From assembly GCF_023074835.1 (NCBI RefSeq), contig NZ_JALLGW010000004.1, positions 1-64,000 of the forward strand: DNA of 64,000 bases. The letters run 5' to 3'. Each line of letters opens with the position of its first letter. Within the stretch, counting starts at the first letter, position 1. Below the pieces are notes generated by a model that saw only the letters and a list, made by a program, of their open reading frames with translations, was not told the DNA's origin and did not search any database. Origin of the DNA: Halomarina salina. GTDB lineage: Archaea > Halobacteriota > Halobacteria > Halobacteriales > Haloarculaceae. The translations under genes and the position numbers were made by a program. This document shows positions 15,894 to 35,009 of the stretch, one piece after another.

Positions 15894-18806
15894 TTATATT
15901 GGGAGGGTGAGGCAGATGTTCTCGACTTCGGGTGCTAGCGAAATCACCTGCGCCTTCCGCTGCAGTTCACGGCGGCGTTTCTCGATCCGCTCCTCCAACT
16001 TCGACAGTCGATCACGCTGTCTCCGGATCGCGATGTCCATGTCCGACCCCGCTTCGGCTTTCCGCTCGTAGTCCGCGATGAACGTCTCGATCCGTTCGCG
16101 CTCCGCTTCCGCATAGGCCTCGAGATCGTCGAGTTCCTGCTGCGTCTCCTCTTTCCGACGTTCGTGAAGTTTGTCGCGTCGTGATTCGACACGCTGGCTC
16201 ACGTATCGGTCGGCGGACGACCGCATCTCGCTCTGGTGTTCGAGGAGCGTTCGTACACGGTCCCCATCCGGGGAGCCTTTGATCGTGCCTCCCTCGATGA
16301 CTCGTTGGCCCAAGCGCTGCTGGGGATCGCGGTGCGCCGCATCGACGAAGATGGGGAGTATCTCCTCTCGAATCACCTCACCCGTCCCGTCCTCGAACCT
16401 GACGCGGTAGTTGTAGGTGATGCCTGGCTCGTCGACGAACGGGAGCAGCTTGAGCCCCACGGCACCCTGCTCGTTGTCGAGCACCCGCTGCATCAGTTCC
16501 TGGACGAGGTCTGCATCGGGAGAGATGTACTCGATTCCGTCGTGGTCCATCGCGAACTCACGGTTGAAGGTGAACGGTCCGTACGGCTCACCGTCACGCG
16601 AGCGTCGAAGGGAGTCGGGCAGTTCTGCACGGAAGAGGTTGCTTCCGGCCTTTTCGACGTCTCCGCCGAGCGCGGAGATTCCCAGCTCGAAGAACTGTCG
16701 GATGTCGGCTTCGCTCCCATAGACGTCCTCGGACTGGTCCATTACCTCCTGGATCTTCCGGCGGCTCTCCTCGTCGAACGTGCTGGTGTCGATGAGGCTT
16801 CGCTCGTACCACTCCGCGAGCGTCCGCTGTCGCTCGTCGATGAGCTCCTCGAGCTCCTCCTTGGTCGCACTCGCGGGCTCGTCATTCCGGATTGACTCCA
16901 TGATGAGCGAGTCGACGTTGATGTCGTCGAGCATCCCCAGCACGTCGGCAGTATTTCCCAGCTGGCCGCGGATGTTCTCGACCTTCTCCTGAAGCATCTC
17001 GAACACCTCGCTTTCGCGGGTGTCCTCGAACGAGAAGTTCCACACTTTGACCTCCTTCTCCTGGCCATAGCGGTGGAGACGCCCGATGCGCTGTTCGAGG
17101 CGGTTCGGGTTCCACGGCAGCTCGTAGTTGACCATGATGTGGCAGCTGTGCTGGAGGTCGATCCCCTCGCTGGCTGCGTCGGTCGCGAAGAGCAAGCGGG
17201 ACTGTCCGTGGTTGAACTCGTCCTCGATGCGAGCGCGGTCTTCCTTGTCGACGCCGCCGTGGATGACGAGGATCTCGTCGGCCCACGGCTCGTCCTTCAC
17301 AAGTTCGAGGATGTAGTCGAGCGTATCGCGGTACTCCGTGAACAGCAGCACCTTCTCGTTAGGCTGTTCCTCGAGCAGCTGTTGGATGTACCGTCGCACC
17401 TTCTGGGCCTTCGAGTCGACAGGGATCCCCTCTGCGAGCGAGACGAGGTCTCTGAGCGTCTCGATCTCCTCTTCGAGTTGGGCGTCGCTCTCGGTGATCG
17501 TGAGTCCTGCGAGCTCCTCTTCGGCCTTCTGCTGGTCCTGCTCGTCGAGGTCCTCCCCCTCGAGGTAGGCGGAGGCCTCCTCGGAGAGGGATGTCGCCGT
17601 TGACTGCTGGTCGACGAGGTTCGCCAGCCGACGACTGAGCGTCGCCTTGATAGCGCCGATACTACTGACGAGGCGCTTCTGCATCAGTGCCATCGCAAAG
17701 CCCACAGCAGGCTCGTTGAGCTGCTCAGAGCGATTGTAGACGTGCTTGACGTAGTCCGTGACCGCACGGTAGAACTGGCGTTCCTCGTAAGTCATCTCGA
17801 CCGGGATGGTCCCGACCTCGCGATTCGGGAAGATGCGCTCGCCGTCGTCGTCGTAGATGGTCTGCTTCCCGCGACGCATCATCACGCGGTCGACCGCCTC
17901 CTTCGAGAGGTCTTGGTCCTCGGCGACGAGGAAGGGGTCGATGTACTCGATGAGCGAGCGGAACGCCTCGCCCTTCCCGTCGTGTGGCGTCGCACTCAGC
18001 AGGAGTAGCGAGTCGGAGTTGTCGGCAACGCGCTCGACCATCTTCGAGGTCTTGCTTGGAGATTCCCCGCGCTTGGCCGCCTTGTGTGCCTCGTCGACGA
18101 CCACGAAGTCCCAGAAGGCGTCATCAAGTTCCTCGCGGAACTTCTCCTGGCGGAGGAACGCCATACTCGTGACCAGTTGTTGGTAGTCCTGATCCCAGAT
18201 GTTCGCCTCCTCCCCGAGACGGCGGCGTTCGCCGTCGACCCACTGCCGATCCGCTGGTGTGAGGCTGATGTCGAAGAAGCGGTCCATGTCGCGGATCCAC
18301 TTCTTCTGGAGGTGCGCGGGGACGACGAACAGGACACGATCGGCGCGGTTGCGTGCGGTGAGTTCCTTGAGGATGAGCCCTGCCTCGATGGTTTTCCCGA
18401 GGCCAACGTCGTCAGCGATGAGCGCTCGCTGTCGGAGCTTCTGCATCACCCAGTTCACGCAGGCAAGCTGGTACGGTTCGAGACGGACCAGCGAGTTCGA
18501 GATGCTCAGCAGTTGTCCCTGTTCGTGGGCGATCTGGAGCTGGAGTGCCTGTGAACGGAGGTCGAACCACTCTGCAGAGACTGATTCGTGGTCAGGATGC
18601 AGGTGAGTGGCTGCCGCCGGTTCGAGCGCACCGAGTTGGTCCTGCTTCCGTTCGATTTCCACGTCGTCGATACAGACGGTTTTGACCCCGATCTCCTCGA
18701 CGTAGGCTCGAAGATAATCGAGGTCGCCGACGGCGTACGTCTTGATCACCTCAGCGGCCGTACCGTTAAGAAAGATCGAATCACCGGAATCGAGGTCAAT
18801 AGACAT
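15894..18806 (-). CDS. brxHII: BREX SNF2/DEAD-like helicase BrxHII
   Basis: A 970-residue superfamily 2 helicase of the SNF2-like type used as BrxHII in BREX (similar to DISARM DrmD). Motifs in order: DDVGLGKTIEAGLIL near 130, VVDEAHKAAKRG near 240, LLSATPHDGKGEA near 270, and the second RecA lobe with FATDAASEGIDLQ near 545 and NRLEQRIGRLHRYGQEK near 575. The last 150 residues are a charged coiled-coil-like region rich in E, R and K. It is the last BREX gene on this strand but is separated from pglZ by a divergent tbp gene, so it must have its own promoter in the interval 18807-18908. It converges with the UvrD gene with a 71-base gap. Confidence 0.88.
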   Translation of the reverse strand: MSIDLDSGDSIFLNGTAAEVIKTYAVGDLDYLRAYVEEIGVKTVCIDDVEIERKQDQLGALEPAAATHLHPDHESVSAEWFDLRSQALQLQIAHEQGQLLSISNSLVRLEPYQLACVNWVMQKLRQRALIADDVGLGKTIEAGLILKELTARNRADRVLFVVPAHLQKKWIRDMDRFFDISLTPADRQWVDGERRRLGEEANIWDQDYQQLVTSMAFLRQEKFREELDDAFWDFVVVDEAHKAAKRGESPSKTSKMVERVADNSDSLLLLSATPHDGKGEAFRSLIEYIDPFLVAEDQDLSKEAVDRVMMRRGKQTIYDDDGERIFPNREVGTIPVEMTYEERQFYRAVTDYVKHVYNRSEQLNEPAVGFAMALMQKRLVSSIGAIKATLSRRLANLVDQQSTATSLSEEASAYLEGEDLDEQDQQKAEEELAGLTITESDAQLEEEIETLRDLVSLAEGIPVDSKAQKVRRYIQQLLEEQPNEKVLLFTEYRDTLDYILELVKDEPWADEILVIHGGVDKEDRARIEDEFNHGQSRLLFATDAASEGIDLQHSCHIMVNYELPWNPNRLEQRIGRLHRYGQEKEVKVWNFSFEDTRESEVFEMLQEKVENIRGQLGNTADVLGMLDDINVDSLIMESIRNDEPASATKEELEELIDERQRTLAEWYERSLIDTSTFDEESRRKIQEVMDQSEDVYGSEADIRQFFELGISALGGDVEKAGSNLFRAELPDSLRRSRDGEPYGPFTFNREFAMDHDGIEYISPDADLVQELMQRVLDNEQGAVGLKLLPFVDEPGITYNYRVRFEDGTGEVIREEILPIFVDAAHRDPQQRLGQRVIEGGTIKGSPDGDRVRTLLEHQSEMRSSADRYVSQRVESRRDKLHERRKEETQQELDDLEAYAEAERERIETFIADYERKAEAGSDMDIAIRRQRDRLSKLEERIEKRRRELQRKAQVISLAPEVENICLTLPI

Positions 18807-18908
18807 TAATGCTTAGTCTTGGTAGACATAGTTACAAATGCTTCGCGGTCACCGAGTGCTGATCCAGTCTCCTATACTGGAAGTGACTCTATTCCCAACC
18901 CTATTCTG
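18807..18908. promoter_or_regulatory. Divergent promoter region between brxHII and tbp
   Basis: This 102-base interval separates the brxHII start (read leftwards) from the ATG of the TBP gene (read rightwards). It is AT-richer than the surrounding BREX genes. A TATA-like CCTATACTGG lies about 30 bases before the tbp ATG. On the other strand GTAACTATG lies about 20-30 bases before the brxHII ATG. Both spacings suit leaderless or near-leaderless haloarchaeal transcripts. The assignments are by eye. Confidence 0.45.
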
Positions 18909-19475
18909 ATGGTTTCTTTTGATCTTAACGAGGATGAGTTGTCGTCCGCGGGTATTGCAGTTAAGAATATAGTCGCCAAACTCGATCTTGATATTGAGTT
19001 TGACTTATCTTATTTATCATCGGAGATACCGCGCTCCAGTTATGAACCCGAACAGTACCCAAGCCTAGTTTTCAGACCATCCGGACTTTCAACAGTATTA
19101 GTCACTCGATCAGGGAAACTCTTGTTTACTGGCGCAGACTCAATTGAAAATTTGCGAGATACCTACCGACGCATTTCTGACGAGTTAGAAGGTATTGGAG
19201 TGGATGATGTCGGGAGAGCAGAAGAGATCGAAATCGTGAATGTTGTCTCGACATTCGAACTGCCTTCGAATGTAGACTTAAATTATTTATCTGTTACTCT
19301 TGGTCTTGAAAATATAGAGTACGAGCCAGAGCAATTCCCCGGTCTCGTGTATAGGATTGAAAACGGGCTTGTAGTATTGATTTTTTCTTCAGGTAAGGTC
19401 GTGGTCACCGGTGCAGAATCGTCATCAGAAATATTAGATGCGGTAAATACGATCCGTGAATTAATATCAGACTGA
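18909..19475 (+). CDS. tbp: TATA-box-binding protein paralogue inside the BREX locus
   Basis: An archaeal general transcription factor fold: two direct TBP repeats (about residues 16-97 and 107-188), 188 residues in all, the usual length for the family. Repeat 2 is canonical, with LGLENIEYEPEQFPGLVYR and LIFSSGKVVVTGA. Repeat 1 has diverged, with YEPEQYPSLVFR and VLVTRSGKLLFTGA. At the positions of the DNA-intercalating phenylalanine pairs, repeat 2 keeps Phe143 and Phe159, but repeat 1 has Tyr50 and Thr66. The ATG at 18909 is preferred to an in-frame TTG at 18819, because the extra 30 residues fit no TBP. The gene is AT-richer than its neighbours, lies divergent from brxHII and ends 4 bases from the pglZ stop. 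Haloarchaea carry several TBPs; a role in driving BREX or plasmid promoters is inferred. Confidence 0.93.
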   Translation: MVSFDLNEDELSSAGIAVKNIVAKLDLDIEFDLSYLSSEIPRSSYEPEQYPSLVFRPSGLSTVLVTRSGKLLFTGADSIENLRDTYRRISDELEGIGVDDVGRAEEIEIVNVVSTFELPSNVDLNYLSVTLGLENIEYEPEQFPGLVYRIENGLVVLIFSSGKVVVTGAESSSEILDAVNTIRELISD

Positions 19476-19479
19476 GAAT

Positions 19480-21630
19480 CTATTCTGGGGTGATCGTCAC
19501 GAAGTTCAACACAAACTCTTGGGGGAGGACGCCGCCGTGATAGAACCGCGCGTCTGGGAGCCCCTGGTTGCGAAAGCGCTGGATCGGATCGGCGAGGATC
19601 CTGACCTTCGCATCGTCGCCGAGGTAGCCCAGGTGTGCATCCTCGTCGAGCAATACGCCTGGAACGTCGTCATCGAAATCTGTTCCAGCAACCCATCGTC
19701 GGGTCACCTGTTCGGCGTTATCTGGCGGATTGAGATCGTCGATATCGACGTGCTTCGGCAGCGAGACGAAGCCGTGGTCTGAGAGGATGTACGCTCGGTC
19801 CCACTCACCCTTGTCCAGCTTCTCACAGATAATGCGTGAGATCACTTCGATGCGGTCGCTGAACAGCTCCTCGAAGTTCGTCAGCTCCTTCTCGCCCGTC
19901 TCGTCGATGTCGTTCCAGTAGTAGGCGACACGGGTGTTGCTCCAGCCCACCTCGTCCTCGGCGTCCTGCATGATGTAGCTCCAGCCATCGTTCTCGAGGA
20001 GGGTCTGGCGACGGTGGTTCGTGATTTTGCGGTTGTTGCGCTCAGGGACGAGTTCTCCGTCTTGGAGTTCGATGTTGAAGCTGAACTTGCTGCCGGGCGT
20101 GAGCGCGGCCTTTCCGAACTCAGTATCGGATGGAAGCGTGCCAACCCACGTGCTCTCGTCGACTTCGAGCTGGGGAAGTTCGCGACGGATCGAATCGGCG
20201 AGCTCGTGGGCGAGGTCGAACCGCAGCGCGTCGACGATGAACAGCGCGACGCTCTGGCCGCTCTGGAGGTGTTCCTGCTCCTCGGCGAAGAACTGGTGAG
20301 CGTGCTTCTCACCGACGAAGGGTGAGCCAGCTTCGATCTGGTCGACGACGAGGTCGCCGAGGTCGCTGAGGTACTCGAGGTATCGCGATTCGGTCAACGA
20401 GCAACGAAGGCCATCAAGCGTCGGCGTCGCCGGGTGTTCCTGTGGGAGCCCGGTCTCCGGTTTGCCAGAGACGATGAGGTTGAACACGGCGTTGTCGATT
20501 TGCCAGGTTCCCCCGTCGACGTCGCCGTAGAGGTCGACGACGTTACTGGTGTCGCCGCGCTCTTCCCACGTCGCGAGTTCGTCCGCGAGCGTGGCCACAT
20601 CAATGGCCTGCGTCCAGACGTTCGTCCACGGAACGTCGCCGTAGGTCGAGTTGAGTCGATCGTGGCGCTGCTTCGCCCGGGTTACACACGTCTCGTAGTC
20701 TCCACTGTTGAACGACTGGATCCACTCGTCCCAGAGCCGGTGTTCGAGCGAGGCGTCGACTGGACAGTCGACGAGCTTCCACGGCTCATCGTAGGTGCGG
20801 AGGATGTCGTGCCAGAACCGCTGGTCAGGATCAAGGTAGACGTTCGCAAGTTCACGCTTCTGTGCAGTCTTGCTCAGCACCGAGCGAAGCTCGGGTCTGG
20901 ACACACCGAATCCCGTGCTGGGTTCGGGCTGGTACTTATGTGGGAGGAGCGACTTGTCGAGGCCTTCGTCGACGAGCCACTCAGCGACCGCCCAGCGGCG
21001 TGTTCGTTCGACGATGGTGCCAGCGTCGGACTGGCCTTCAACGGCCTTGACACCGTTGTCAACCAGCAAGTCACGTATCTTCAGCAACTCGTCGCCATTG
21101 GGGAGGTTCCGCGTGCCGTGTTCGAGAACGAACTGCACAGGGTCGTCGTGGCCGTCCAGCACGATCTTTGTCTGGAGGCCCTGGAGGGATGGGAGGCCCC
21201 CCTCGCCATTGAGTTCTTCGTAGAGCGTTTGAGCGACCTTCTCGCGGTCCTCGGCGTTCTCGTAGGCGGTGCGAATCGTCGCCGCTTGGAGTTGATCGTT
21301 CTCGAAGCAGCGTGCCGCGAGCTTACCGATGTGCTGTTCGACGACACCGCCAGTATGCTCGACGTCCTTGAACCAGTCAACGTCGTCGCTGCTGGGCTGG
21401 GGAACGTACCAGACGGTCCGGTCGCGTGGGGCGTCTGCACGGAGTTCTAACGGTGTCTGCTCGGCAGCACGGAACTCACACCGGAGTTGGGTGCTCGCGT
21501 GTTCGACGATGTCTTGCAGATAGCCTCCATCGTCCCACCAGAGGACAACGGGATCGTCGGTGGACGCCCCGTCGATGCTGCTCTCGATGGCGTCATGAGC
21601 GCACTGTGGGAGGGTCTTGGTTGCCGGCAT
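19480..21630 (-). CDS. pglZ: BREX PglZ, alkaline-phosphatase-superfamily protein
   Basis: A 716-residue protein with the PglZ domain, the one core component present in all BREX types together with a BrxC/PglY ATPase. The metal-binding phosphatase-like core starts with ALFIVDALRFDLAHELAD near residue 460 and continues through TEFGKAALTPG near 510. The late motif LSDHGFVSLPKH lies near 617. The N-terminal 440 residues are helical and family-specific. It starts 2 bases after the pglX stop, so the two are co-transcribed. Biochemically, PglZ proteins are thought to work with PglX in depositing the BREX methyl mark; the enzymatic reaction itself is not settled. Confidence 0.93.
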   Translation of the reverse strand: MPATKTLPQCAHDAIESSIDGASTDDPVVLWWDDGGYLQDIVEHASTQLRCEFRAAEQTPLELRADAPRDRTVWYVPQPSSDDVDWFKDVEHTGGVVEQHIGKLAARCFENDQLQAATIRTAYENAEDREKVAQTLYEELNGEGGLPSLQGLQTKIVLDGHDDPVQFVLEHGTRNLPNGDELLKIRDLLVDNGVKAVEGQSDAGTIVERTRRWAVAEWLVDEGLDKSLLPHKYQPEPSTGFGVSRPELRSVLSKTAQKRELANVYLDPDQRFWHDILRTYDEPWKLVDCPVDASLEHRLWDEWIQSFNSGDYETCVTRAKQRHDRLNSTYGDVPWTNVWTQAIDVATLADELATWEERGDTSNVVDLYGDVDGGTWQIDNAVFNLIVSGKPETGLPQEHPATPTLDGLRCSLTESRYLEYLSDLGDLVVDQIEAGSPFVGEKHAHQFFAEEQEHLQSGQSVALFIVDALRFDLAHELADSIRRELPQLEVDESTWVGTLPSDTEFGKAALTPGSKFSFNIELQDGELVPERNNRKITNHRRQTLLENDGWSYIMQDAEDEVGWSNTRVAYYWNDIDETGEKELTNFEELFSDRIEVISRIICEKLDKGEWDRAYILSDHGFVSLPKHVDIDDLNPPDNAEQVTRRWVAGTDFDDDVPGVLLDEDAHLGYLGDDAKVRILADPIQRFRNQGLPDARFYHGGVLPQEFVLNFVTITPE

Positions 21631-21632
21631 GG

Positions 21633-24600
21633 CTACAGAACTTTGTCGTCGACAGTCATCGGAACGATCTCAGCGTCGGCCAGCGGCTTGATGTTGATTT
21701 CGACCCCGTGATTTTGATTCGGCTGGTAGCCAGCAGTCGTGATCTCTGAGAGGGCACGTTCAGACCAATCTGATTGAATTCGCTTATCGGCAAACTGACA
21801 TCGGTCGTCAATCTCTTCGGCCAGCGCCTTGAATTCTGCCAGCGGCGGGAGGTCGTCGACACTTTCGTCACCGTCAGTCATCGCCTCCAGATATGTACTG
21901 TCAACAATTGATGAGTTGTTGAGGCCCATCGCGAGTGTGGCGAGCAGGCGTTCGCTCTCAGTGAGATTTTCGAACGGTCGGCCGTCGTCGTCAAGTAGCT
22001 CGGCACCCTCGCGCTCGAAGTAGTAAGTCATGAAGAGAATACCCGTGCTGGAGTAGTGGTCCGAACCCTTGAGCCGCCAGTTGAAGTAATCGAACAGATC
22101 AGCCAGATGTGCTTCGACTGGCTCGTCAACTGGTTTAGCGTATTCCTCGCACGCCCGTTCGAGTTCTTCAAGTGCGTCTAACCACTCGTCTCGCCACTCG
22201 TTGACAGCCTCCCAGAACTTGTCGGAGAAGGTATCTTTGAACCACTTCTCACCCTCGCGCTCGCGAAGTTCAGCCAGCGTGTCCACGCGCTTTCGCGTCT
22301 CTTCACGAAAGGCGGCGACCTTTGGGGCAAGATCATCAACTCGCTGGCGATCATCATCGTCGAAATCTCGTTCGTCAGTGCTGCCTAGCTCCTGAATCAC
22401 GTCCTCGAGGATATTGATCTGATTGAGACCACTCGCACATCGTTCGTACTGCTCTGCGGCCTCGGCTTGTTCACTCGTCGAAAGCGAGTCATCGCGTCGG
22501 CGACGGTTCGCCGCGCTGCGGCGCTCACGCAACTCGGCCTTCCGCGGTTCGAGATACTGATTGGCTAGTCGGTCGAGTAAGCCGGAATCGAGGCAGTGGT
22601 AGTCAACAAAGCACGCGAAGCCCTCACCTTTCGAATCCGTAATGAGGCGCTCAGTGGTGAGTTTCCAGAGAATCGGCGTGTTCTTCATCCGACTAACGTG
22701 GTAATCAAACAGGTCCTCAGAGATGAATGACCTGAGGTTAGGATAAGCTTCCTCAGTAGCTGATTCGTCTCCGAGGACCTCGTCAACTTCGACGAGGCGA
22801 TCCTCGGCATGCTCATGGTAGATCTCCTCAAAACGTTGAACTATTCTGCCGAGCATATCAGGTTGTTTATCATTACCATGGAGAGGAACAATCCCATCCG
22901 GTTCAGCTCGGGCAGCCTCCATCGCGAAGTGATGGACAAGGTCCTTAATTTGTTCGTCAAAGTTGTCTGGTACTGAGTCAATTGATTCCGACTCTGGTAT
23001 GGTTCGACGTGTAGGGTCGTTCCCGGTTCGAAGATGTATGTCGGTATGGACCTCCTCGCGAGTACTTTCAGATATATCTAACTCATCGTATAGAATTTTA
23101 TCAATATTTTCAGATAGCTCTTCAATTTTAGAATGACGGTTAACACGGTCTTTTTCGATACGAATAGACTGTTCAGACAGCGAAGATTTTCTGGGGGAGG
23201 TAACTCCGAGCATTTGATCAAGATCAGGTATATTTTCAGTATACATGTGATTGTAAAAGAATTCATTATTCTGAACACCGGTAAGGAGAGCTGGAGCAAC
23301 GTAATACGGACTTGTGGGATCGTACAATCTATCTATCAACTTCAGCATATACTGTTCTTCAGATGCTTCCTTTAATTCGTTAATTTCAGAAAACGACTCG
23401 TACCAGGGAATGCTGCCGACATACCCTGCTGTCCAATGACGACCTGTTGTAATGGATAGAAACAGCGAATGATAAAGTGATGAATTTAGGACAGCCATCA
23501 TCTGCCATAGTGATTTCTTATTATCTGGAACGTATAGATATCCGGTTGCACTGAACAGGCGCCCAGGGGGGAAATACCCGAATCGTCTCCCAGTTTGCTT
23601 TATATATGTCCAAGTTAATCCTTCGTCACCATACATTTGTTCATTTGGCGTCCGGACCGTATTGCTAAACCGTTTTATATTTGTACCGTTCTCACCCCAC
23701 TCGACCACTTGGTTCACGTGTGGAACAATCCATACATCGGATCCTCCCGTAGCAATCAATTTAAACAATGAAAAATCAGTAGTTTCCCATACGTAGCGAT
23801 AGAACCTTCCATCGTTTGCAGTTGCGATACCTTGACGCGCTAAACCTGCAGACTCACCACTAACTTCTGCCTGTTCTGCATCTAGCTTTAGTTCCGTTTC
23901 ATGTAGATCTCTCACTTCGTCTGGGGTTGAATAACAGATAGAATTTCCAGGGACTTTTGAAAATTCATTCAAGTCAATCTCGAAATATCGTCTAATATCA
24001 CCCTCGATCCCGGAGATCACGTTGGTAAATCTTCTTTCTTTTTGTGCAGGTTCTAGATCATAAAGACGAATGAAGCTGCCGGTAGTCTTTGTTCCACCAC
24101 TGGATCGGATTACAGTACCCGCGGTCCGGACGGTTGCGTTGTCCAGAATGCTGCTCCCGAACTCGGCTAAGAAGTCAAAGCTACTTAGTTTGCCCAAAAA
24201 GTCCGTCCTAAACTCGCGGAATCTCCTTTTAAACATGAATGTCTGGGGCACTAGCATACCTATCCTCCCATTCCTACTTGTCAAATTGTCTGCAATTTCA
24301 AAGAAGTTAATATAGAATTCTGTCGGGTAATTATAATGGGATTCAATATACTTCTTGATTGAGGACGGCATTCGGTTCCGGGATCCATACGGTGGGTTCA
24401 TCAGAGTCACGTCGTAGTCCTGCGCCAGAATGTCCAGCAATCGAACAAAGCTCCGCAGGTCCTGCGCGAGGAACGAATCTGAGTCCCGATGTTCATCAAC
24501 GGCTTCCCGTAGACTGTGTAAGACCTGTCCGAGCGTATGGCTCTCCGTTGGGTCGTCGGTGAGAGTAATCTGCACACCTCCAACATCGCTGTCATCCTCG

Positions 24601-25949
24601 AACAGGTCACCAAGCGTACCACGAACATCTAGCAGGCTGCCGAGTCCGTGGACCTCCTCAAACGCCTCAAGGATGCGTCGAAGTGCGTCCTCGACTTTCT
24701 GGTCGTCGCTTGCTACTTCATCGAATACAGTTTCGACGCCGTCGATGTCGGCGACTGATGAGTCTGCACAGACGATACCGACCTCCGGCATATTGAACCC
24801 GTGTGCCCCTTCGGCCTCGGTTCGGGTTCGTCCCTTCAGGTACAGATTGAACGCTGCTAGCTGACACGCACGCATGTCGAGGTCGACACCGTAGAGATTG
24901 TGTTTCAGAATCTCTCGCGGTACCTCCTCGTGGGGCAGGTCGGTCTCAGCGCGCCAAATTCTCTCTAGTACGTCGAAGGCGTACAGCAGAAAGTGTCCAC
25001 TCCCACAAGCAGGGTCGATGACGCGAAGCTCCTTCGGGTGTTCGAAGTCAGTCGGTTCTCCTTCCTCCTCGGACGGGACGAGATAGGTACAGAAGTCAGC
25101 AATATTGGGCGATTCGTTGGGTGAAAGTGGCCGGTTCTTTCGCTCGTCAGGACTGAACCCTTCCTGGGCTTCGACCACGTCCCGTAACTCGCCAGTATGT
25201 TCGAGGTAGAGCTTCCCGAGCGAGTTGTCGGTGAGCATTCGGACGACCCAGTGTGGCGTGTAAAACTGGTTAGCTGGCGGGACGTCCTCAGGGTCTAGAC
25301 CAACCCGGTCACCTTTCCGGCGGAGATCATCAAGGAGCTTCGTGTTGTAGTACTCGTAGACCCAGCCGAGCACGTCGTCTGCTCGCCAGACCTCATCGAG
25401 AACTTCATTGAGCATCCCACACAGCTCCTCAAAGGTGTTGTCGTCCGGATCGATAAGGCTGTAGGCGGAAGAACGGTCGAAGAGGATCTCAATCTCATCG
25501 GCCAGCTCGTCACACGCGTTGTGGTAAGCTTCGAGGATGGCCTCGTCCTCCAGCAGAAACTCTTCGTGGACAAGTGTCTCTGCCGCAGGTGTCAAACCGT
25601 TCTCTTTGAACACGGTGACTTCCTCATCGATGAAGTCACGGACTTCCATACAGCGCAGCGCAGCAAGACGATTGACGATGGTGTACCCGACACCAGTGAT
25701 GTACCGCTCAAACGCCTCGTCCCACGTATGGCCGTCGACGGCCTCAAGTTCGATAGCTTCGACGAGCTGTTGCGTGTCCTCATCTAGTCCGTCCACATTC
25801 TCCGGCTCGTCATCGAGACCTTTCTGCGTCAGTTGGAACCGGACGTTGTCTTCGACGCGCTCGCGGAGATCTTCGACGACATCTTCGAGATGTTCACGTT
25901 CAGCCTTATCCAGTTGCGCCTTCCGTTGAGAGAGTGAATCGCCTTCCAT
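21633..25949 (-). CDS. pglX: BREX adenine-specific DNA methyltransferase PglX
   Basis: The protein has 1,438 residues, long for an N6-adenine methyltransferase but typical of PglX. The SAM-binding motif IDPACGSGHFLLYAF lies near 310 and the catalytic TLMNPPYGS near 515, both in a class I gamma-type order. Residues 1-290 are a helical N-terminal region and 1,050-1,438 a charged C-terminal region. The piece after the NPPY motif (about 536-983) should hold target recognition; its DNA is conspicuously AT-rich compared with both ends of the gene. PglX modifies host DNA at a non-palindromic site so that BREX can tell phage from self. About 75 bases separate it from brxC upstream, and only 2 bases from pglZ. 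Confidence 0.93.
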   Translation of the reverse strand: MEGDSLSQRKAQLDKAEREHLEDVVEDLRERVEDNVRFQLTQKGLDDEPENVDGLDEDTQQLVEAIELEAVDGHTWDEAFERYITGVGYTIVNRLAALRCMEVRDFIDEEVTVFKENGLTPAAETLVHEEFLLEDEAILEAYHNACDELADEIEILFDRSSAYSLIDPDDNTFEELCGMLNEVLDEVWRADDVLGWVYEYYNTKLLDDLRRKGDRVGLDPEDVPPANQFYTPHWVVRMLTDNSLGKLYLEHTGELRDVVEAQEGFSPDERKNRPLSPNESPNIADFCTYLVPSEEEGEPTDFEHPKELRVIDPACGSGHFLLYAFDVLERIWRAETDLPHEEVPREILKHNLYGVDLDMRACQLAAFNLYLKGRTRTEAEGAHGFNMPEVGIVCADSSVADIDGVETVFDEVASDDQKVEDALRRILEAFEEVHGLGSLLDVRGTLGDLFEDDSDVGGVQITLTDDPTESHTLGQVLHSLREAVDEHRDSDSFLAQDLRSFVRLLDILAQDYDVTLMNPPYGSRNRMPSSIKKYIESHYNYPTEFYINFFEIADNLTSRNGRIGMLVPQTFMFKRRFREFRTDFLGKLSSFDFLAEFGSSILDNATVRTAGTVIRSSGGTKTTGSFIRLYDLEPAQKERRFTNVISGIEGDIRRYFEIDLNEFSKVPGNSICYSTPDEVRDLHETELKLDAEQAEVSGESAGLARQGIATANDGRFYRYVWETTDFSLFKLIATGGSDVWIVPHVNQVVEWGENGTNIKRFSNTVRTPNEQMYGDEGLTWTYIKQTGRRFGYFPPGRLFSATGYLYVPDNKKSLWQMMAVLNSSLYHSLFLSITTGRHWTAGYVGSIPWYESFSEINELKEASEEQYMLKLIDRLYDPTSPYYVAPALLTGVQNNEFFYNHMYTENIPDLDQMLGVTSPRKSSLSEQSIRIEKDRVNRHSKIEELSENIDKILYDELDISESTREEVHTDIHLRTGNDPTRRTIPESESIDSVPDNFDEQIKDLVHHFAMEAARAEPDGIVPLHGNDKQPDMLGRIVQRFEEIYHEHAEDRLVEVDEVLGDESATEEAYPNLRSFISEDLFDYHVSRMKNTPILWKLTTERLITDSKGEGFACFVDYHCLDSGLLDRLANQYLEPRKAELRERRSAANRRRRDDSLSTSEQAEAAEQYERCASGLNQINILEDVIQELGSTDERDFDDDDRQRVDDLAPKVAAFREETRKRVDTLAELREREGEKWFKDTFSDKFWEAVNEWRDEWLDALEELERACEEYAKPVDEPVEAHLADLFDYFNWRLKGSDHYSSTGILFMTYYFEREGAELLDDDGRPFENLTESERLLATLAMGLNNSSIVDSTYLEAMTDGDESVDDLPPLAEFKALAEEIDDRCQFADKRIQSDWSERALSEITTAGYQPNQNHGVEINIKPLADAEIVPMTVDDKVL
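23000..24340 (-). other. AT-rich mosaic segment within pglX
   Basis: Inside the otherwise GC-rich pglX frame this stretch shows many A/T-ending codons and long A/T runs, for example around 23086-23110, 23340-23400 and 24290-24350. Both flanks return to the GC-rich codon choice of the rest of the BREX operon. The reading frame is intact throughout. The segment encodes about residues 536-983, after the catalytic NPPY motif, where the target recognition domain is expected. Exchange of this domain with a donor of lower GC is the simplest explanation. The borders are approximate. Confidence 0.6.
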
Positions 25950-26024: not shown

Positions 26025-29000
26025 CTACTCTTCGATTAACACGATACCACCATCGTCGACGTCGTCCAGCGTTTGTTTGGCCTCTCGGATTCGAGTCAAC
26101 AGTTTCTCCGACTCGTCGAGGAGCTCCGTCGCTCGTTCGTCAGTCGGACGATCGTCTGCATCGACTAATCCCGTCACATCGTCGGTGATCGCAGCGTTCG
26201 GAAGCTCCTGCCGGAGCTCTTCGGCGACGAGCTGTAGCTCCGCCCACGCGTCATCGTCAGCCCCCGGAAGCTTGGGATTCTTTGCTTCCTCAATGAGCTG
26301 CCGAACTCGCTGGAGCGACGGCGGCCGCGACGCGTTCAGTACGGTCACAACCGACTCAGTGGTTGGCGAATCCGGATGATCTGTCCGGAGATCATCGTGG
26401 GCAGATTGTAATTCCGACCACGGGCTCGATTCACCTTCGAGAAGCTCGCGAACCTTCTCGTAATCCTCGGCCTGCTGGCGCACGGACGAGTCAACCAACT
26501 CCCCTTCGGTGATCTGATTGCCGCTCCACGCGACCTCGAACATAGACTCGAGTTCGTCGAGCGAGACGTCGTCGAACGTCGCTGTAGCGTCGTCGAGGAG
26601 ACCCCCAACGTCCGACTCGTTATCGCGAAGCCAGTCGGTGAGCACCGTACAGATCTCGGCTGGGTCTGACGAGTCGGCAGACTCGTCCGTCACTCGCCGG
26701 TACTGCGTCGAGAGTTCGTCGACGCGATGGCCTGTTGCATCCGCGAGCCGCGAAGTCACGGTTGTCTTCGTCGGGACAGACCCGCTCTCCGCGGTCGTCT
26801 GCATTCGACCAGTAATCGTTGCACTGGGGTAGAGGTCCTCCAGCAGTTCGAGCGTCTCGGTGAACTGCGCCCAGAGCGTGTTCTCGCTGTCCGCTGCAGC
26901 GAAGAGGTCACGTGCGTCGGCGAAGGTTTCGGCCTCGGACTGGATGCCGTCGTCGACCAACTCTGACGTAGTGATATCGCCACCACTGTAGGCCGGTTCC
27001 AGAACAGCCTCCAGCCCGTCCAAGGCCACATCGAACTCTCTGGAGACGCCCTTGAACGTCCGCTTGACGAGGACGCTGTTGGTTTCGACCCAGGAGGCAA
27101 GTTCGGCTACCCACGCGTCAGGGTCACTGCCTTCGGGATCGTGGCCGAGGACCGTCGACACGACCTTGCGAATCTCCTTTGGATTGACCGTATCGACGCC
27201 GAACCGAACCTGCAACGACGTGAGCCCGCCCTTCGTTCGGACCTGTCGACCAATCGCCGTCGGATCCGTCACGTAGTCCGTATCCTGCTTGAGTGCAACC
27301 TTCTCGTTCGATGTCGCGAGCGTGATGAGCAGCGCCGCAATCGACTCCTGTGGCGTCCCTCGGTAGTCGCCGTTCGCCGTCCGCGTTTGCTGGAGCAGCG
27401 TCTCGACGTCCACTGCAGTCTGTGATTCGTACTCGTCGATGAACTCCCGACACCAGCCAGTGTCCGCGAGTGCTGTACTCGACGTATCGACGCCAAGCAT
27501 CACGGCGTCGCTATCAGCGAGCGGCCAGTCGCCACTTCCACGGAAGAATTTCGCCAGCTCCTTCGCGTCGTCCACCTCGATGAGCGGCCGAGAGAGGACC
27601 TTTCGCGTCGAGCCAAACACTGCCTGTACCTGGTCTTCGACGACGTCGTCGAGGACGTTTGGTCGCTCACCCCGGTAGTCGTGGACTGTGTGGACAGACG
27701 CGTTTTTGAGGAGATCGCTCACGGACGACTCCAGCCGTCGTTTATCCGTCCGGTGCTCTCGTTCGAGCTCCTCGTGACTCTCGGTCTCTTCTTCCAGCAC
27801 CTGCCCCATCCCGATGACGTTGCGGATTCTGTCGAGTGTCGTCTCGGGAACGTCGATCGCGATGAGGATGTGTTCACCACCGTCACGCCCGTCGTTCACG
27901 TCCTGCCACGTCTCTACCTGGTCAGCAACTGTATCGGGATCGTCGGCGAGGACGCGAATTCGGACGGCGTCGTACTCCGTGGTTGGCGCTCTGCCCACTG
28001 GGTCAAGGATGGAGTACTCGTAACGGAGGGGAACGAGCCGCTCGTCGCCGACGTCGGCCTCGTGGAGGCTGTTGTCGCTTCGGAAGAAGTAGTCGTTCTC
28101 CCGGAGTCGCGTCTCAAGCCAGGCAGAGAGCTGGTGTGGCGAAATCTGCTCGGCTTTCGTCTGTGCCCGACTGAGGATACTCTCCTGTTCCTCCGAGACG
28201 AGCGTGTACACCTCGTCGCCCTTGTCGTTGGTCTCCGTGAGCACCTTCCGCTTATCGACGAGCGTGTTGAGTGCCGATTGGGTTTCTTCGACGCGTTGAT
28301 CCACCGAGGCGTTCACGTCGTCGAGCATCAGCCGCCCGAGGTTCTCTGGCGTCGCCGGGACTGCTGGTGTCTGGTTCAGCAGGTACAACGCCTTCGAGAC
28401 ACGGACTTCCCACGCATCCTCGTTCCCCTCGAACGTCGGGATCAGCGTGTTCTCGAGCATCTCCTGGACCCACAGCGGCACATAGGTCGTCTCCTCGACG
28501 AGCAGGTCGAACAGTTCGTCCCACGTAACGAGGGCTCCCTCTTCCGCATCAGCCCAGCCGAACTTCGTGAACAGCGACCGAACCAGAACGAGCAACGCAC
28601 GACCCTGGATGTAGTCACGCTCGGTCGCTCGGCCTTGCGTGATCAGTTCCTGCATCACCTTCCGCAACAGCGTCAAGTCGTACTCGCGGAACGGATACGA
28701 CTCGATCGCGTCAGGGTCAGCACTCCCGACTGGTGAATACGCCTCCAGCGAGAGGTCCGGCATCGACGAGATGAGCGAGGAGACTCGAGAGCTGCCTTCA
28801 CTGTCCTTCTGCAGCCAGCGTTTCCGGATGATGATTTCCGTGTCCGCACCTTCGAGCGGTACTTGCTGATGGGTCCAGTGATCCTCGGAGGGTTTTCCGA
28901 TGAGGCTCTCGCGTGTATCCGGAAGCGAGTACTGACCAGTGGTCACGACGACCGGGTTCGGGCCGTACTGGAGCGCTTCCATCGTCTCCTCGAACTCGCG

Positions 29001-29837
29001 ATAGCGATGCCGACTGTCGCCGACGAACAGCGCGACCTCGTCGAGGCCAAGGAGGAGTTCCGTGTGCGGTCCCGCTTCGTTCAGTGCTGCAGTCACGGTT
29101 TCGACGCGTTCGACCAACTCAGTGGGATCGAACGACTCGGGGTCGACCTCCGCTTCGGCCTGCTCGATGGACGCTTTCACGCCCTCCCGACTGTCGAGTT
29201 CGGTCCCTGTCGTCTCCGACAGGGCAGGGAGGGCCTCGTAGAGCCATCGCCGCAGCGAGGCACGCTCTTCGAGCACGTCCTCGAACGTCTGGCCGTCGTG
29301 CTCGGTGGACTGGAGCGCATCCCAGACGCCGTCGTACTCCATATCAACGGTCCAGGCCCACTCGAGCAGCCAGTTGGGATCAGTCGGATACCCCAGCTCA
29401 CGACCGATCGCCTCGAAGATGAGAAACGGAAGCGGCGGTTCCTTCGAGGCGTCCCGGTCGAGGAGATTCAGGAACACCGGTTTGAGCCGCTCGACGTGTG
29501 AGTCGTCGATCGACTGCGCGAGGTTGTCGAACCCAGGCCACTGCTCAGCGAGCTCGGTCCCCAGATGGGCGAACTCGGACTCAGTGTCGGCGACGAGACC
29601 GATGAGCTTCAGCAGGTGTGTCTTCCCCGACCCGAACGTCGCGTGGAGATAGAGGAATCGAGCGGCCTCTCCTGGATGCGTCTCGATGACGTCTCCGAGT
29701 TCAGTTAGGACGCGCTTTGCACTCTCCGTCTCGTGGAACTCGACGACGTCAGTCTCAGCCCGTTCACGGGCGTTGACTTTCTGGACTTCTTCGAGCTGTC
29801 GCGTCGGGTCGCTGCGGAATAGATTGCTGATACTCAT
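26025..29837 (-). CDS. brxC: Second BREX BrxC/PglY-type ATPase
   Basis: A 1,270-residue P-loop ATPase of the BrxC/PglY family. Walker A is HATFGSGKTHLLKLIG near residue 70, and Walker B LLLGLDEVALFVGD lies near 265. A long helical, acidic C-terminal half follows, with repeated segments such as GGDITTSELVDD and SGNQITEGELVDS in the last third. Two different BrxC-type proteins in one locus are a mark of BREX type 5. The start overlaps the brxB stop by 4 bases (ATGA), so translation is coupled. A 75-base gap with a possible promoter of its own precedes pglX. BrxC ATPases are large nucleotide-dependent scaffolds of the modification and exclusion complex. Confidence 0.88.
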   Translation of the reverse strand: MSISNLFRSDPTRQLEEVQKVNARERAETDVVEFHETESAKRVLTELGDVIETHPGEAARFLYLHATFGSGKTHLLKLIGLVADTESEFAHLGTELAEQWPGFDNLAQSIDDSHVERLKPVFLNLLDRDASKEPPLPFLIFEAIGRELGYPTDPNWLLEWAWTVDMEYDGVWDALQSTEHDGQTFEDVLEERASLRRWLYEALPALSETTGTELDSREGVKASIEQAEAEVDPESFDPTELVERVETVTAALNEAGPHTELLLGLDEVALFVGDSRHRYREFEETMEALQYGPNPVVVTTGQYSLPDTRESLIGKPSEDHWTHQQVPLEGADTEIIIRKRWLQKDSEGSSRVSSLISSMPDLSLEAYSPVGSADPDAIESYPFREYDLTLLRKVMQELITQGRATERDYIQGRALLVLVRSLFTKFGWADAEEGALVTWDELFDLLVEETTYVPLWVQEMLENTLIPTFEGNEDAWEVRVSKALYLLNQTPAVPATPENLGRLMLDDVNASVDQRVEETQSALNTLVDKRKVLTETNDKGDEVYTLVSEEQESILSRAQTKAEQISPHQLSAWLETRLRENDYFFRSDNSLHEADVGDERLVPLRYEYSILDPVGRAPTTEYDAVRIRVLADDPDTVADQVETWQDVNDGRDGGEHILIAIDVPETTLDRIRNVIGMGQVLEEETESHEELEREHRTDKRRLESSVSDLLKNASVHTVHDYRGERPNVLDDVVEDQVQAVFGSTRKVLSRPLIEVDDAKELAKFFRGSGDWPLADSDAVMLGVDTSSTALADTGWCREFIDEYESQTAVDVETLLQQTRTANGDYRGTPQESIAALLITLATSNEKVALKQDTDYVTDPTAIGRQVRTKGGLTSLQVRFGVDTVNPKEIRKVVSTVLGHDPEGSDPDAWVAELASWVETNSVLVKRTFKGVSREFDVALDGLEAVLEPAYSGGDITTSELVDDGIQSEAETFADARDLFAAADSENTLWAQFTETLELLEDLYPSATITGRMQTTAESGSVPTKTTVTSRLADATGHRVDELSTQYRRVTDESADSSDPAEICTVLTDWLRDNESDVGGLLDDATATFDDVSLDELESMFEVAWSGNQITEGELVDSSVRQQAEDYEKVRELLEGESSPWSELQSAHDDLRTDHPDSPTTESVVTVLNASRPPSLQRVRQLIEEAKNPKLPGADDDAWAELQLVAEELRQELPNAAITDDVTGLVDADDRPTDERATELLDESEKLLTRIREAKQTLDDVDDGGIVLIEE

Positions 29838-30424
29838 TGTTGGAGATGCACCTCACGGATCTGGCCGTCGATCTGATGCGCTGGGTAGTAGTGCCGCGAG
29901 TCACCGCCGAAGAAGCTCAACTTCCCCCCGACGACATCGCCTGGGAAGGGGATCCCGATCGTCGATCGGACGTTTCGGCGGTCGAGTTCGTCGAGGAGTT
30001 CCGAGGCACGCGTGAATGGGTAGAGGCTGCCGAGGTTGAGGAGCAGGACGATGTGGCTCTGGGTTTCGAGTTTGTCATCGCCGATCTCGTTTGAGATCAT
30101 CTCTTGAACCAACTCTTCAGCAAGCCGGTCCTGCATCGTTTCCTCAATACGTTCCGCGCTCGTTTCGCCGCCGAGGGCAACGGATAGGTTGTACACCTTG
30201 GTCTTGGGAAGAAGCTCGTCGAGCCAGATTGGCTGGACAGTGACTTCCTCGTTGATTACGGGAGCTTCGTTGGCTCCACTTGCCCACGCGCTCAGTCGTT
30301 TTGCAGCTCGGTGTTCGACCGCCGGGTCGACGGCGGCGATGACGAACGGATTCCGGATACCGGCCTGACCGTCGGCGAACGTACAGAGTTTCTCTTTGAA
30401 CGCACGGTACGGTGAGTCGGTCAT
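29834..30424 (-). CDS. brxB: BREX protein BrxB (DUF1788)
   Basis: A 196-residue protein with the DUF1788 signature. The C-terminal GIPFPGDVVGGKLSFFGGD followed by RHYYPAHQI is the family hallmark. A central beta-strand-rich part has VQPIWLDELLPKTKVYNLS and SHIVLLLNLGSLYPF. Its function is unknown, but it is a core small subunit of BREX types that also contain brxA. It overlaps both neighbours by 4 bases (ATGA at each junction), placing it between the two brxC genes in one tightly coupled operon. Confidence 0.9.
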   Translation of the reverse strand: MTDSPYRAFKEKLCTFADGQAGIRNPFVIAAVDPAVEHRAAKRLSAWASGANEAPVINEEVTVQPIWLDELLPKTKVYNLSVALGGETSAERIEETMQDRLAEELVQEMISNEIGDDKLETQSHIVLLLNLGSLYPFTRASELLDELDRRNVRSTIGIPFPGDVVGGKLSFFGGDSRHYYPAHQIDGQIREVHLQQ

Positions 30425-33400
30425 CGGATGACCACCCCCGAGTCGGTCACATCGATGTCCAGCTCCCGGCTCTCGACGAGACGTTCGAGGTGCCGGTCGA
30501 TGCTTTGCCGGTCGTCCGGCAGCACGCCGATCTGATCGACGTCATCGGGCGTCCGGTCGCCGACGATCGCTGAGAGTCGGTCGAGCCGGGACGCCAATTC
30601 GCCCACATCGAACTCAGTAGCCGTGGAGAGCGGATTTACCCCGGAGATATCATCTGCAGCCGAGACCAGCGCGTCCTCGTCGTCCGAAGCGAGCGATGCG
30701 ACAACCTGATCGATCGTCTCGTACCATCGCCGTATCTCTCGCAGGGGCGTGATGTACTCACGTTCCATCGCGACCTGCACGCCTGTCGGAAGCTCCGTTG
30801 CGGGGATGACCCACGGATGGCCATCGATACGCTCGACGAGGTCAGCGAGCTCTTGCTGGTCGACGTAGGCGTTCCACGAACGCTGGAACTCCGTACTCAG
30901 CCCGGTCGTGGTCTCTGCGACGAGGGCCTTCCATCCGTCTGTCGTCCACCAGCTCCCATCGAAGTTCTCGAGCGCATCGCGTTGTGCAGTGACTGCCGAC
31001 AGCGCTTCGTCGTCGACCCACTCGAATCGGTCGTCACCCACCGTGAGTTGCGCGTCGAGCCGGTAGAGAGTCCCGAGGCGACGGTTCCAGACGTCTTTCA
31101 CTTCGTCGAACCATTCCTGCACGTCGTTCGTTTGTTCGATCGCGTCTCCGAGCCCGTCTCCCTGCGATCTTACGACGGACAACCGATCAGCAGTAACGCT
31201 GATACGATCGGACAGTTCCTCGATGAGTGCGTCGAGGAGTCCAGCGACAGCTTCCGAGTGAACGTCGGTATCGACGACTAACTGGACGTCCTCCTGGAGG
31301 CCACTGAGCGACGACCGTAACTGCTGGTTCGCTTCCTGTAGGTGGATGAGTCCGTCTGCGACCGTCTCTGTCGTCTGCTTGAAGCCACCTTCTTCGAGGA
31401 GCTTCCCGATCGGCTCACGCGGGAGCAGCTTCAACCTCGTCGTCGAGAGCTGCTCTTGGTCGAGCACAGCCGAGTTCTCCAGCGTATTCCCGTCTTCGTC
31501 GACGGGAACCAATCGGCCCTCCCGACAGAATCCCCAGATGATCGCACAGAGTGCCGGACGAGCGTCGTCGTAGAACGGCTTCTCCGAGGTGATTCCGTCG
31601 AGAACTGTGTTCATATTGAGGCCGTCGTCGCGGTCTTTCAGCTGCCGACCGGCGAGGGATAACACGTTATTCTGAATCGACGTCTTCCCTTGGCTTACAG
31701 ATGGATCGGACGATGGCACCTGGATCTTGTGCGCCCACGTAGGAAGTGGGTCGCCTGTCGAGAGCTCCGCTAATTCTTGCAGGCGATCGTCGGTCACCTG
31801 CAGCATCATCGGGTGGAAGTCGTCGGGATACCCGACGTTGACGGCGGTCTGGACCGCCTTGGAGATCCCGCTGATATCCGTTCGGTCTTTCACCGTGTAC
31901 GACCCGCTCTGCATCGCACTGACGAGCTTACTCCGAACAGCACTGGCACGCTGCTCGAGGTCGCGTTCCACAGCTGGCGGTGCGTTGTGTGTCGAGATTG
32001 CGTCACGGAGTGCCCACCACTTGACGAGATGCTTCCGGAGGTCGTCCAGTCCGTCCGTGTCTATCGTCCAGTAGAGGGTCTCCTCGTCGCCGTTTTCGGC
32101 GGTGTGGTCTGGGCGAACGCCCTGCAGTTCGATGGAGACATCCAGTCCCCTGTCGGCGTCGACGGTGGTCTCGAAGTCAGTTCCATCGAGACGGAATCCA
32201 TATGCCACTGGATACTCGTCACCAGAGTCGCCGTACGGGACTGATTCTGGGAGAGAGAGGTCCTGTGTGATCCGATGCCAGAGATGCTCGTCCAGCGCTT
32301 GCAGTACCGCGTCCCAGTCGGGGTCGTCTTCGTTGGCTTCCGTGTCGTCGTAGATAATCCGCTCTTCCTGGGTCGCGAAGCGGTACCGAGCCCCCGTTTC
32401 GTCTTCGGTCGGTCGAATGAACTTCTGGAGGCGTCCGAGCGACTCCTCGACTCGGTTCTGGGTACTGATCCAGGACCGACCGTTGAGGTCCGACATCACG
32501 GAGACCGCAATGTTCCCCTCGTTGAGCGGGACGATATCGTGGACGTGTTGGAGTAGGAGAACGGCTTTCGCCACGTCGAGGTCGAACTCCTCGAGATCTC
32601 CATCATCCACTTCGTCTTTGATTCCTCGGCTCGCGTCGGAGCCCTCGATGACGCGCATATCCTGTTTGAGTATCTCTCTGAGTTCCGGCTTCACCAACTC
32701 GTAGAAGTCCACCAGCGTGATGGCCTGGTCATTCTTTCCCTCCTTGACCCACGCCTGTAGGAGGTTGTGCATGAGCGCGAGAATGGCTCGTGCCGTTCCC
32801 GAGAAGATCGACTTCGCCGGATCACTGGCCTCCTGGCGTAGGTTGAACAAGATTTCGAGGAACAGGGGTGCGTGGTACGGGAGGAACGGATAGAACTCGA
32901 CGAGCTCCTCGTCGTCAATGCTGTCGAGCGGCGGTTTCGTGTTCTGCTTGATCTCGTTGTAAACCAGCGATTCGGTGGGTTTCACCGACGCGTCCTCGAG
33001 CACCTCTCGAACTGCTGCCTCCCCGACGTCCGACTTCTCGAATAGACGGCGCTTCGCGATGTCGCCGACGTGCTTGCTGGGGAGCTGGTAGCGGTGGGGG
33101 AATCGATCCTTGACAATGCTGAAGTCCGCACCGTGTGCCGCGAACTTCGGCTGGACGTCCTCGATCTTCGCCTGCGCTGTCGCGACCAACTGGATGTCGC
33201 CATCGCCGATGTCGTCGACGTTCTCGGCGAGTGTCTGGAGTTCGGTCAGTCGCTCGAAGTCGGTGCCGATGAAGAGGCTCACCTCGTCGAGCAGCAACAC
33301 GAGCTTCACTGGTTTCCCCAGATCTGACTCCCGCTCGGCCCGTAGCTCTTCCAGCCTGCTCACGACCTCTTCCGGGTCGATGTCGGACGGCTGCAGGTCG

Positions 33401-34140: not shown

Positions 34141-35009
34141 TAGCTCTCACCTCCATCGAGTGCCCACGAGTACGGCTCATCACTTGGACGCACGTCGAGA
34201 TCACCGTGCAGCTCGAGGTACTCCCACGCGTCAGTGCTCACAACCCGGTCGAAGAGCTCCTCCCAACGGTTCTCGGGCTGGAAGAGATAGAGTAACCCGC
34301 GCGGAGCAGTGAGCCACTCGTCATCGCCGCTCTCGTATGAATAGTCCATTGCGACGAGCAACGAGATATCGCCTATCGACGGAGATTCACCCACGACCGA
34401 TTGCTGCCCGTCGAGGACACCAATTTCGCGCACCACTGATCGAAAGCCCTCGCACCATCGCTCGGTCGTCGACTCCGCGTAGTCGAAGGAGTCCCCGTCA
34501 GAGTACTCGAGCTGAGTGAGGATATCGACAAGCGTCTCGTTCGAGAAGTCGAGCGGATTCGGATTGCCCTCCGTGAGACGGGCGACGTATTCGTGAACGA
34601 CGTACCGGACGAGCGAATCGTCCGACACGAGGTATAGATAGAGGATCTGCGCTTTGTCGCGGGTCGTCTGGCACTCATCGAAGATCGCTGGCAGAGTGCT
34701 GGGATTCGGGAGCGCCGTAGGAGCGTTCTTGAATCGCGACGTCAGTACGCGGTATATCTTCTGGGAGCTCCCCCGCGTGCTTCGGTTCGACAGTCGTTCG
34801 TCGAACCAGATCTCTTTGACTTCGTTCCAGTTTCCGTGTTCGGCGTAGAGTCGGGCGAGTTCCTCGGCTCGCTCGATGAGGAGCCCACACATGGTTAGAT
34901 CCATGTTCACCTCATCTGAGGAGAGCTGCCGAGAGAGCGACGGCAGTAAAGATGCACCACCGTCCGACACGAGTGACATATCTTGGAGAACTGAACCGAC
35001 ACACTTCAT
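34140..35009 (-). CDS. brxA: BREX protein BrxA (DUF1819)
   Basis: A 289-residue helical protein with the DUF1819 pattern: SLVSDGGASLLPSLSRQL at the N-terminus, the basic segment RSTRGSSQKIYRVLTSRFK near 85-105, and AQILYLYLVSDDSLVRYVVHEY near 135-155. BrxA proteins are small winged-helix-like DNA-binding subunits and stand first in many BREX operons, as here. The ATG at 35009 is at the far end of the family alignment; the internal in-frame ATG codons near 34977 and 34906 are alternatives. The operon promoter should lie in 35010-35120. Confidence 0.87.
   Translation of the reverse strand: MKCVGSVLQDMSLVSDGGASLLPSLSRQLSSDEVNMDLTMCGLLIERAEELARLYAEHGNWNEVKEIWFDERLSNRSTRGSSQKIYRVLTSRFKNAPTALPNPSTLPAIFDECQTTRDKAQILYLYLVSDDSLVRYVVHEYVARLTEGNPNPLDFSNETLVDILTQLEYSDGDSFDYAESTTERWCEGFRSVVREIGVLDGQQSVVGESPSIGDISLLVAMDYSYESGDDEWLTAPRGLLYLFQPENRWEELFDRVVSTDAWEYLELHGDLDVRPSDEPYSWALDGGES

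Follow-up and report, generated by a model that had tools for sequence, protein, structure and literature searches.

The window, by which we mean the whole 64,000-nucleotide stretch of DNA that was analysed, contains a BREX type 5 gene set that is complete and in order (brxA, brxB, two brxC, pglX, pglZ and brxHII) according to PADLOC and NCBIfam, the latter assigning pglZ and pglX specifically to BREX-5. A gene for a TATA-binding protein (TBP) is set into this locus. PADLOC identifies the seven genes that flank it (brxHII, pglZ, pglX, brxC, brxB, brxC and brxA), and none of its models matched the TBP itself. The evidence presented throughout is comparative.

15894..18806, minus strand: brxHII, RapA/SNF2-type helicase (PADLOC BrxHII E 0, 2018 bits; RapA E 5.1e-59)
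18909..19475, plus strand: TBP gene, asymmetric, 188 aa, family A BREX TBP (Pfam, AF2/Foldseek, same-slot homologues)
19056..19106, plus strand: repeat-1 stirrup, with Tyr50 (19056-19058) and Thr66 (19104-19106) replacing the intercalating Phe pair (alignment)
19335..19385, plus strand: repeat-2 stirrup, with Phe143 (19335-19337) and Phe159 (19383-19385) kept (alignment)
19480..21630, minus strand: pglZ, BREX-5 phosphatase (NCBIfam BREX_PglZ_5, 1209.7 bits)
21633..25949, minus strand: pglX, BREX-5 adenine methyltransferase (NCBIfam BREX_5_MTaseX, 2269.7 bits)
26025..29837, minus strand: second brxC/pglY ("brxC2"; PADLOC BrxC, 2266.7 bits)
29834..30424, minus strand: brxB (Pfam 4e-12; PADLOC 5.7e-106)
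30421..34140, minus strand: first brxC/pglY ("brxC1"; PADLOC BrxC, 2201.8 bits)
34140..35009, minus strand: brxA (PADLOC BrxA, 2e-151)

The TBP gene is convergent with pglZ, from which it is separated by 4 bp, and divergent from brxHII, with a 102-bp spacer between them. On the far side of brxHII, a GajB/UvrD-like helicase gene (window 12352-15822, plus strand, 1156 aa) faces the end of the BREX locus, and several BREX-5 loci are flanked by UvrD helicase and PD-(D/E)XK nuclease genes.

Structure of the window TBP

The product of 18909-19475 matches the Pfam TBP model with E = 7.6e-44 in two stretches, one per repeat, and its AlphaFold model (mean pLDDT 90) aligns in Foldseek with the archaeal TBPs 1mp9 and 2z8u at a TM of about 0.8, placing it in the saddle fold with two TBP repeats. 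The ATG at 18909 was taken as the start because the homologues begin at the same residue and the DNA just upstream diverges. The initial annotation had described a two-repeat TBP of 188 residues between pglZ and brxHII in the opposite orientation, and on this the open reading frame, Pfam, PADLOC and NCBIfam agree. The protein falls under the cut-off of every curated NCBIfam TBP subfamily, the best scores being 162.6 bits (cut-off 255) and 161.8 bits (cut-off 181). A second TBP of the same genome, on another contig (C1), has all four Phe, and there is no further TBP beyond that one. No TFB partner was found within the locus, the TFB matches of the genome all lying outside the window.

Alignment to the intercalating Phe positions also bore out that repeat 1 has Tyr50 and Thr66 in their place and that Phe143 and Phe159 of repeat 2 are intact. 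Hence, the window TBP lacks one of the two Phe pairs, one per stirrup, that mark a standard archaeal TBP and has the hallmark of the TbpC-like TBPs, namely an N-terminal Phe pair that is gone and a C-terminal pair that is present. In TBP-TFB complexes the repeat-2 stirrup is the TFB side, and here that stirrup is almost invariant, with the sequence EYEPEQFPGL intact. Positions N27 and V29 of repeat 1 (Asn20 and Val22 in the window TBP) are retained.

TBPs in BREX type 5 loci

Relatives of the window TBP were sought in 392 genomes of the order, which are a sample. The closest (G056, 75% identity) belongs to a different archaeal family; its BREX-5 locus is collinear, and the TBP keeps both its slot and its orientation there. 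A third TBP, in Halobellus captivus (L047), was reached by a scan for PglZ relatives, is 73% identical and again occupies the same slot in the same orientation. No other TBP in the 392 genomes exceeds 44% and, therefore, both close members of what we call family A sit in BREX. Tyr50 and Thr66 are invariant across all three.

The initial annotation had held that a dedicated role would show in a Tyr/Thr TBP at a conserved pglZ-brxHII slot, and that the gene would be a chance neighbour if no other BREX locus carried it and its relatives lay at random plasmid sites. All three known members have the Tyr/Thr pair in that slot, the second outcome is contradicted by two more BREX-5 loci, and the conserved slot, orientation and residue pair support the dedicated role. 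A chance neighbour is ruled out by the conservation of the slot together with the exclusivity of the clade.

Between the G056 and L047 genes dN/dS is 0.09, and the window TBP gene is evidently under purifying selection; a pseudogene was ruled out by the open reading frame and this dN/dS value inside the clade. Between the window and G056, the dN of the TBP (0.166) is close to that of pglZ (0.144) and the synonymous sites of the TBP are saturated and, thus, the two genes have long been inherited together. The TBP gene has a GC content of 42%, against about 60% around it, but a recent foreign insertion argued from this was dropped, as the copies in G056 and L047 have a GC content of 41-42% too and their synonymous divergence from the window copy is saturated. 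Viral contigs scanned with profiles of family A and of the BREX TBP families B and C described below yielded nothing, which speaks against a viral origin; three phage records contain distant asymmetric TBPs.

The spacer between the divergent genes was compared among the three loci.

18807..18908, no strand: divergent brxHII-TBP spacer, 102 bp (comparison with G056/L047)
18828..18845, minus strand: candidate BRE/TATA-like element CGAAGCATTTGTAACTAT (identical in three loci)

The two halves of the spacer differ sharply, with identity between the window and G056/L047 of 87-88% over the brxHII-side segment of about 52 bp and of 31-33% over the TBP-side half. For comparison, the synonymous sites of the flanking genes are only about 40% identical, and the brxHII side is under constraint. 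In a leaderless haloarchaeal gene the BRE/TATA is expected about 25-32 bases before the ATG, and the TTTGTAAC part of CGAAGCATTTGTAACTAT covers about -32 to -25 relative to the brxHII ATG, in the register of a leaderless brxHII promoter, for which promoter activity is predicted. Allowing up to 3 mismatches, a search of the window for further copies of CGAAGCATTTGTAACTAT matched only the spacer element itself; likewise, no operator shared by the spacer with the region upstream of brxA or with any other part of the window was found. The initial annotation had proposed that this TBP may recognise non-standard promoters and switch the BREX (or plasmid) genes on as a unit. The divergent spacer with its conserved segment would fit control of brxHII and does not indicate the sign of the regulation.

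In order to place the window locus, 74 distinct BREX-5 loci were compiled from genome contigs, whole genomes and plasmids. A TBP is present in 13 of them and falls into the following groups.

Family A, pglZ-brxHII slot: window, G056, L047
Family B, set in opposite orientation between pglX and the second brxC, divergent from pglX: L055, L058, L065, L067, plus L127, where the copy is frameshifted
Family C, directly 3' of pglZ, in a subtype whose pglX-brxHII pair is inverted: L068, L155, L156, plus L152, where the copy is truncated
Other TBP lineages: L127 (a second TBP) and L145

The TBP is accessory, neither a core nor a fixed component of BREX-5, because 61 of the 74 loci dispense with it, including the nearest relative of the window (L037, pglZ 92%), where the slot is filled by another gene. 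Damaged copies are found in L055, L127 and L152. In a fourteenth TBP-bearing BREX-5 locus (L213), reached via its TBP, the protein belongs to family B/C and its gene diverges from brxA.

Families B and C fall into a single clade without any non-BREX member (100/100 in one tree; 0.992 in another), and all seven matches above 250 bits to the family B/C profile in the 392 genomes lie in BREX-5 loci, the next match scoring 205 bits. This clade occupies three positions, divergent from pglX, divergent from brxA and directly after pglZ and, being exclusive to BREX at several positions, its linkage to BREX has therefore outlived relocation. In slots A (3 loci) and B (L055, L058, L065 and L067) the TBP is always divergent from the next BREX gene at about 100-210 bp; in subtype C it is co-directional and last. 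The BC clade groups among the TbpC-like TBPs and family A branches apart from them, though its exact place is unsure, the divergent TBPs forming long branches. The stirrup losses are likely to be independent between lineages.

The same slots take other genes. The pglZ-brxHII slot elsewhere holds a small PD-(D/E)XK nuclease (PDDEXK_5; L042 11310-11774, L118 12734-13204 and L119 6789-7211), and a gene of about 180 aa lies between pglX and pglZ in L036 (2403-2942), with similar-sized open reading frames in about fifteen other BREX-5 loci; Pfam gave no match for the G056 copy of this gene.

Half-altered TBPs beside other defence genes

The family B/C profile recovered roughly a hundred further divergent TBPs from the 392 genomes. 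In a table of stirrup residues with 59 rows, which counts the window TBP and three BREX TBPs as references, 54 have lost one or both N-terminal Phe and kept the C-terminal pair, and the remainder are one ordinary chromosomal control and four with the reverse pattern. Every one of the 36 ordinary TBPs in the tree set has all four Phe. A homologue of a methyltransferase, an SNF2 helicase, a restriction-modification (R-M) or DUF262 protein or a BREX protein is found no more than 2 genes away in 35 of the 39 asymmetric-TBP neighbourhoods and in 0 of the 36 ordinary ones, the neighbour genes being uncurated open reading frame calls. Loss of the N-terminal Phe pair thus predicts a defence neighbourhood, though the Fisher value of 3.6e-17 overstates the contrast because the reference library was partly drawn from such neighbours and the loci are related. 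A separate PADLOC scan agrees with it: in one half of the asymmetric set SNF2 helicase models matched at least 8 of 41 neighbours, and in the other half a methyltransferase model matched at least 13 of 42. For the 68 control neighbours, MAD2-type methyltransferase matches numbered at most 2 and the families listed included no SNF2 helicase model. Half-altered TBPs are found beyond BREX as well.

The commonest arrangement is an operon of a PglX-like methyltransferase, a BrxHII/RapA-like helicase and a TBP, with 4-bp overlaps in annotated plasmid examples; on plasmids of H. lacusprofundi, H. salinarum and Natronomonas it is the start of the TBP gene that overlaps the stop of the helicase gene by 4 bp. 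We consider this haloarchaeal operon a candidate defence system. Such three-gene operons with stop/start overlap lie at L253 4743-12546, L254 4887-12549 and L255 4738-12546. One asymmetric TBP sits 3' of a type I restriction gene, and some adjoin methyltransferases or type I R-M genes where there is no BrxHII/RapA-like helicase. Asymmetric TBPs also lie beside R-M genes in the tailed haloviruses HRTV-9 and HJTV-2 (L161 1-3537; L162 2965-6242).

Some defence loci contain two TBPs (L234 9682-10308 and 13193-13774; L238 2791-3366 and 6301-6855; L249 5562-6113 and 10116-10664; L241 7742-8332 and 8383-8964), and these four pairs are complementary, one member lacking one or both N-terminal Phe and the other one or both C-terminal Phe. 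Possibly another system is found at L186 9467-16277, where a 328-aa TBP-containing open reading frame lies beside a 1441-aa von Willebrand A-domain protein.

Possible roles and known systems

The association of the TBP with BREX is established by the loci described above, and from them we infer the mechanism: that the TBP binds DNA and TFB, which promoter it targets and that it regulates. The window TBP may be a selected, BREX-dedicated accessory transcription factor, a TFB-dependent regulator of the neighbouring brxHII, and we put the chances of this being right at about even. A dedicated regulator of the oppositely directed BREX gene is preferred because TFB recruitment appears to be kept, the grip on DNA altered and the promoter segment conserved. 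The C-terminal half, whose kinking Phe pair is intact, would bind TFB, the N-terminal half being altered, and with the host TFB and RNA polymerase the TBP would act at the divergent promoter shared with brxHII. It would set the level or timing of the BrxHII helicase, in the manner of BrxR in BREX-1 or of C proteins in R-M, and the separate TBP lineage in other BREX-5 loci plausibly does likewise for pglX or brxA.

Two counterpoints to a regulator have to be weighed. The first is that a co-directional TBP in last place, as in subtype C and the methyltransferase-helicase-TBP operons, fits a complex subunit at least equally well. The TBP would then be physically part of the defence machine, or its substrate, and a RapA/SNF2-like helicase (BrxHII or its operon relative) would act on or with it in a Mot1-like way, for example in recognising invader promoters or dislodging transcription complexes. 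We think this unlikely, but it is a serious rival, as the operon form and the RapA-like helicase lend a physical role weight: the 4-bp stop/start overlap implies coupled expression, BrxHII and the operon helicase both match the RNA-polymerase-associated RapA, a parallel likewise drawn for BrxHII in PMC12839542, and the window TBP directly adjoins brxHII. However, the TBPs in slots A and B run in the opposite direction and can have pglX or brxA as their neighbour instead, asymmetric TBPs beside methyltransferases or type I R-M genes can lack a RapA-like helicase altogether, and the Foldseek matches to Mot1-TBP entries stem from the TBP alone.

The second counterpoint is that the TBP slots of BREX-5 are general accessory-cargo sites, which carry many unrelated genes (PD-(D/E)XK nucleases, a second pglX, unknowns). 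The TBP, with its low GC content, its accessory status and damaged copies in some loci, could be one more passenger, kept for its own or a plasmid's sake, with no role in BREX. This is improbable in view of two BREX-exclusive TBP clades, one of which changed position but remained in BREX, the defence genes adjoining 35/39 asymmetric and 0/36 ordinary TBPs, the alteration of the same half in separate lineages and the conserved promoter segment. Least probable of all is a dominant-negative or decoy TBP that would bind TFB through its C-terminal half, form no normal bent TATA complex and damp transcription of the locus or from virus promoters, for although the TFB-contacting half alone is preserved, repeatedly, and haloviruses too carry asymmetric TBPs, a tbpC knock-out had no apparent phenotype in standard culture (PMC2121645) and N27 and V29 of repeat 1 are retained in the window TBP.

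Beyond BREX, it is conceivable, if rather doubtful, that half-TBPs serve generally as a component of methylation-based antiviral systems, both in haloarchaea and in some of their viruses. They would work alongside a PglX-like methyltransferase and a RapA/BrxHII-like helicase, in some operons as two complementary TBPs, and would form a direct promoter- or transcription-sensing module and not part of ordinary initiation. The comparisons suggest that archaea may have turned a general transcription factor to use in virus defence; if so, it was recruited repeatedly, each time with alteration of the same half of the molecule, and BREX-5 would gain a regulator or a subunit. The tight linkage to BREX, R-M and methyltransferase-helicase genes also gives the TbpC-like TBPs a testable role.

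Neither a 2026 survey of BREX (PMC12839542), which does not mention TBP or TATA, nor a survey of archaeal R-M (PMC10609329), which does not mention TBP, refers to such proteins, and the initial annotation's remark that it knew of no TBP described as a BREX component held in the literature searched (few subscription papers covered), in which no TBP was described as a component of BREX or R-M. No account appears to exist there of half-altered TBPs being linked to BREX-5 and methyltransferase-helicase loci. The window locus has the full gene set and order of BREX type 5, the TBP being an extra. The TbpC-like TBPs were described by Becker et al. 2014 (PMC4230888) as having lost the N-terminal Phe and as either nonfunctional or highly specialised, with their role left open and no defence context given (the word 'restriction' is absent). 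The window TBP resembles them in having lost the N-terminal Phe pair and kept the C-terminal one, and in being accessory, TbpC being dispensable in laboratory culture (tbpC knock-out, PMC2121645), but belongs to a separate lineage (Tyr/Thr, clade A). What appears to be new here is the tie of the TbpC-like class to BREX and R-M loci, the stirrup loss itself being already known (PMC4230888).

The TOTE and TALON conflict systems include TBP genes (PMC12458937) and are alike in having TBP domains inside prokaryotic defence operons. The TALON cases, however, are from Bacillati, with TPR-CSD, NERD nuclease and YprA helicase, whereas the window TBP is flanked by BREX genes only, and the TPR-OB/CSD protein with a NERD nuclease or other effector that defines a TOTE/TALON operon is absent from the window locus. 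Mot1-TBP is the eukaryotic pairing of a Swi2/Snf2 ATPase with TBP, and the likeness lies in a Snf2-type ATPase and a TBP occurring together, though BrxHII belongs to a separate, RapA-like helicase family. For the regulator that we prefer, the analogy proposed is to BrxR, one of the WYL regulators of BREX-1 (PMC9122589), as a small, locus-encoded DNA-binding regulator at a BREX promoter; BrxR is a winged-HTH WYL dimer, whereas the window protein has the TBP fold and its action would go via TFB and RNA polymerase.
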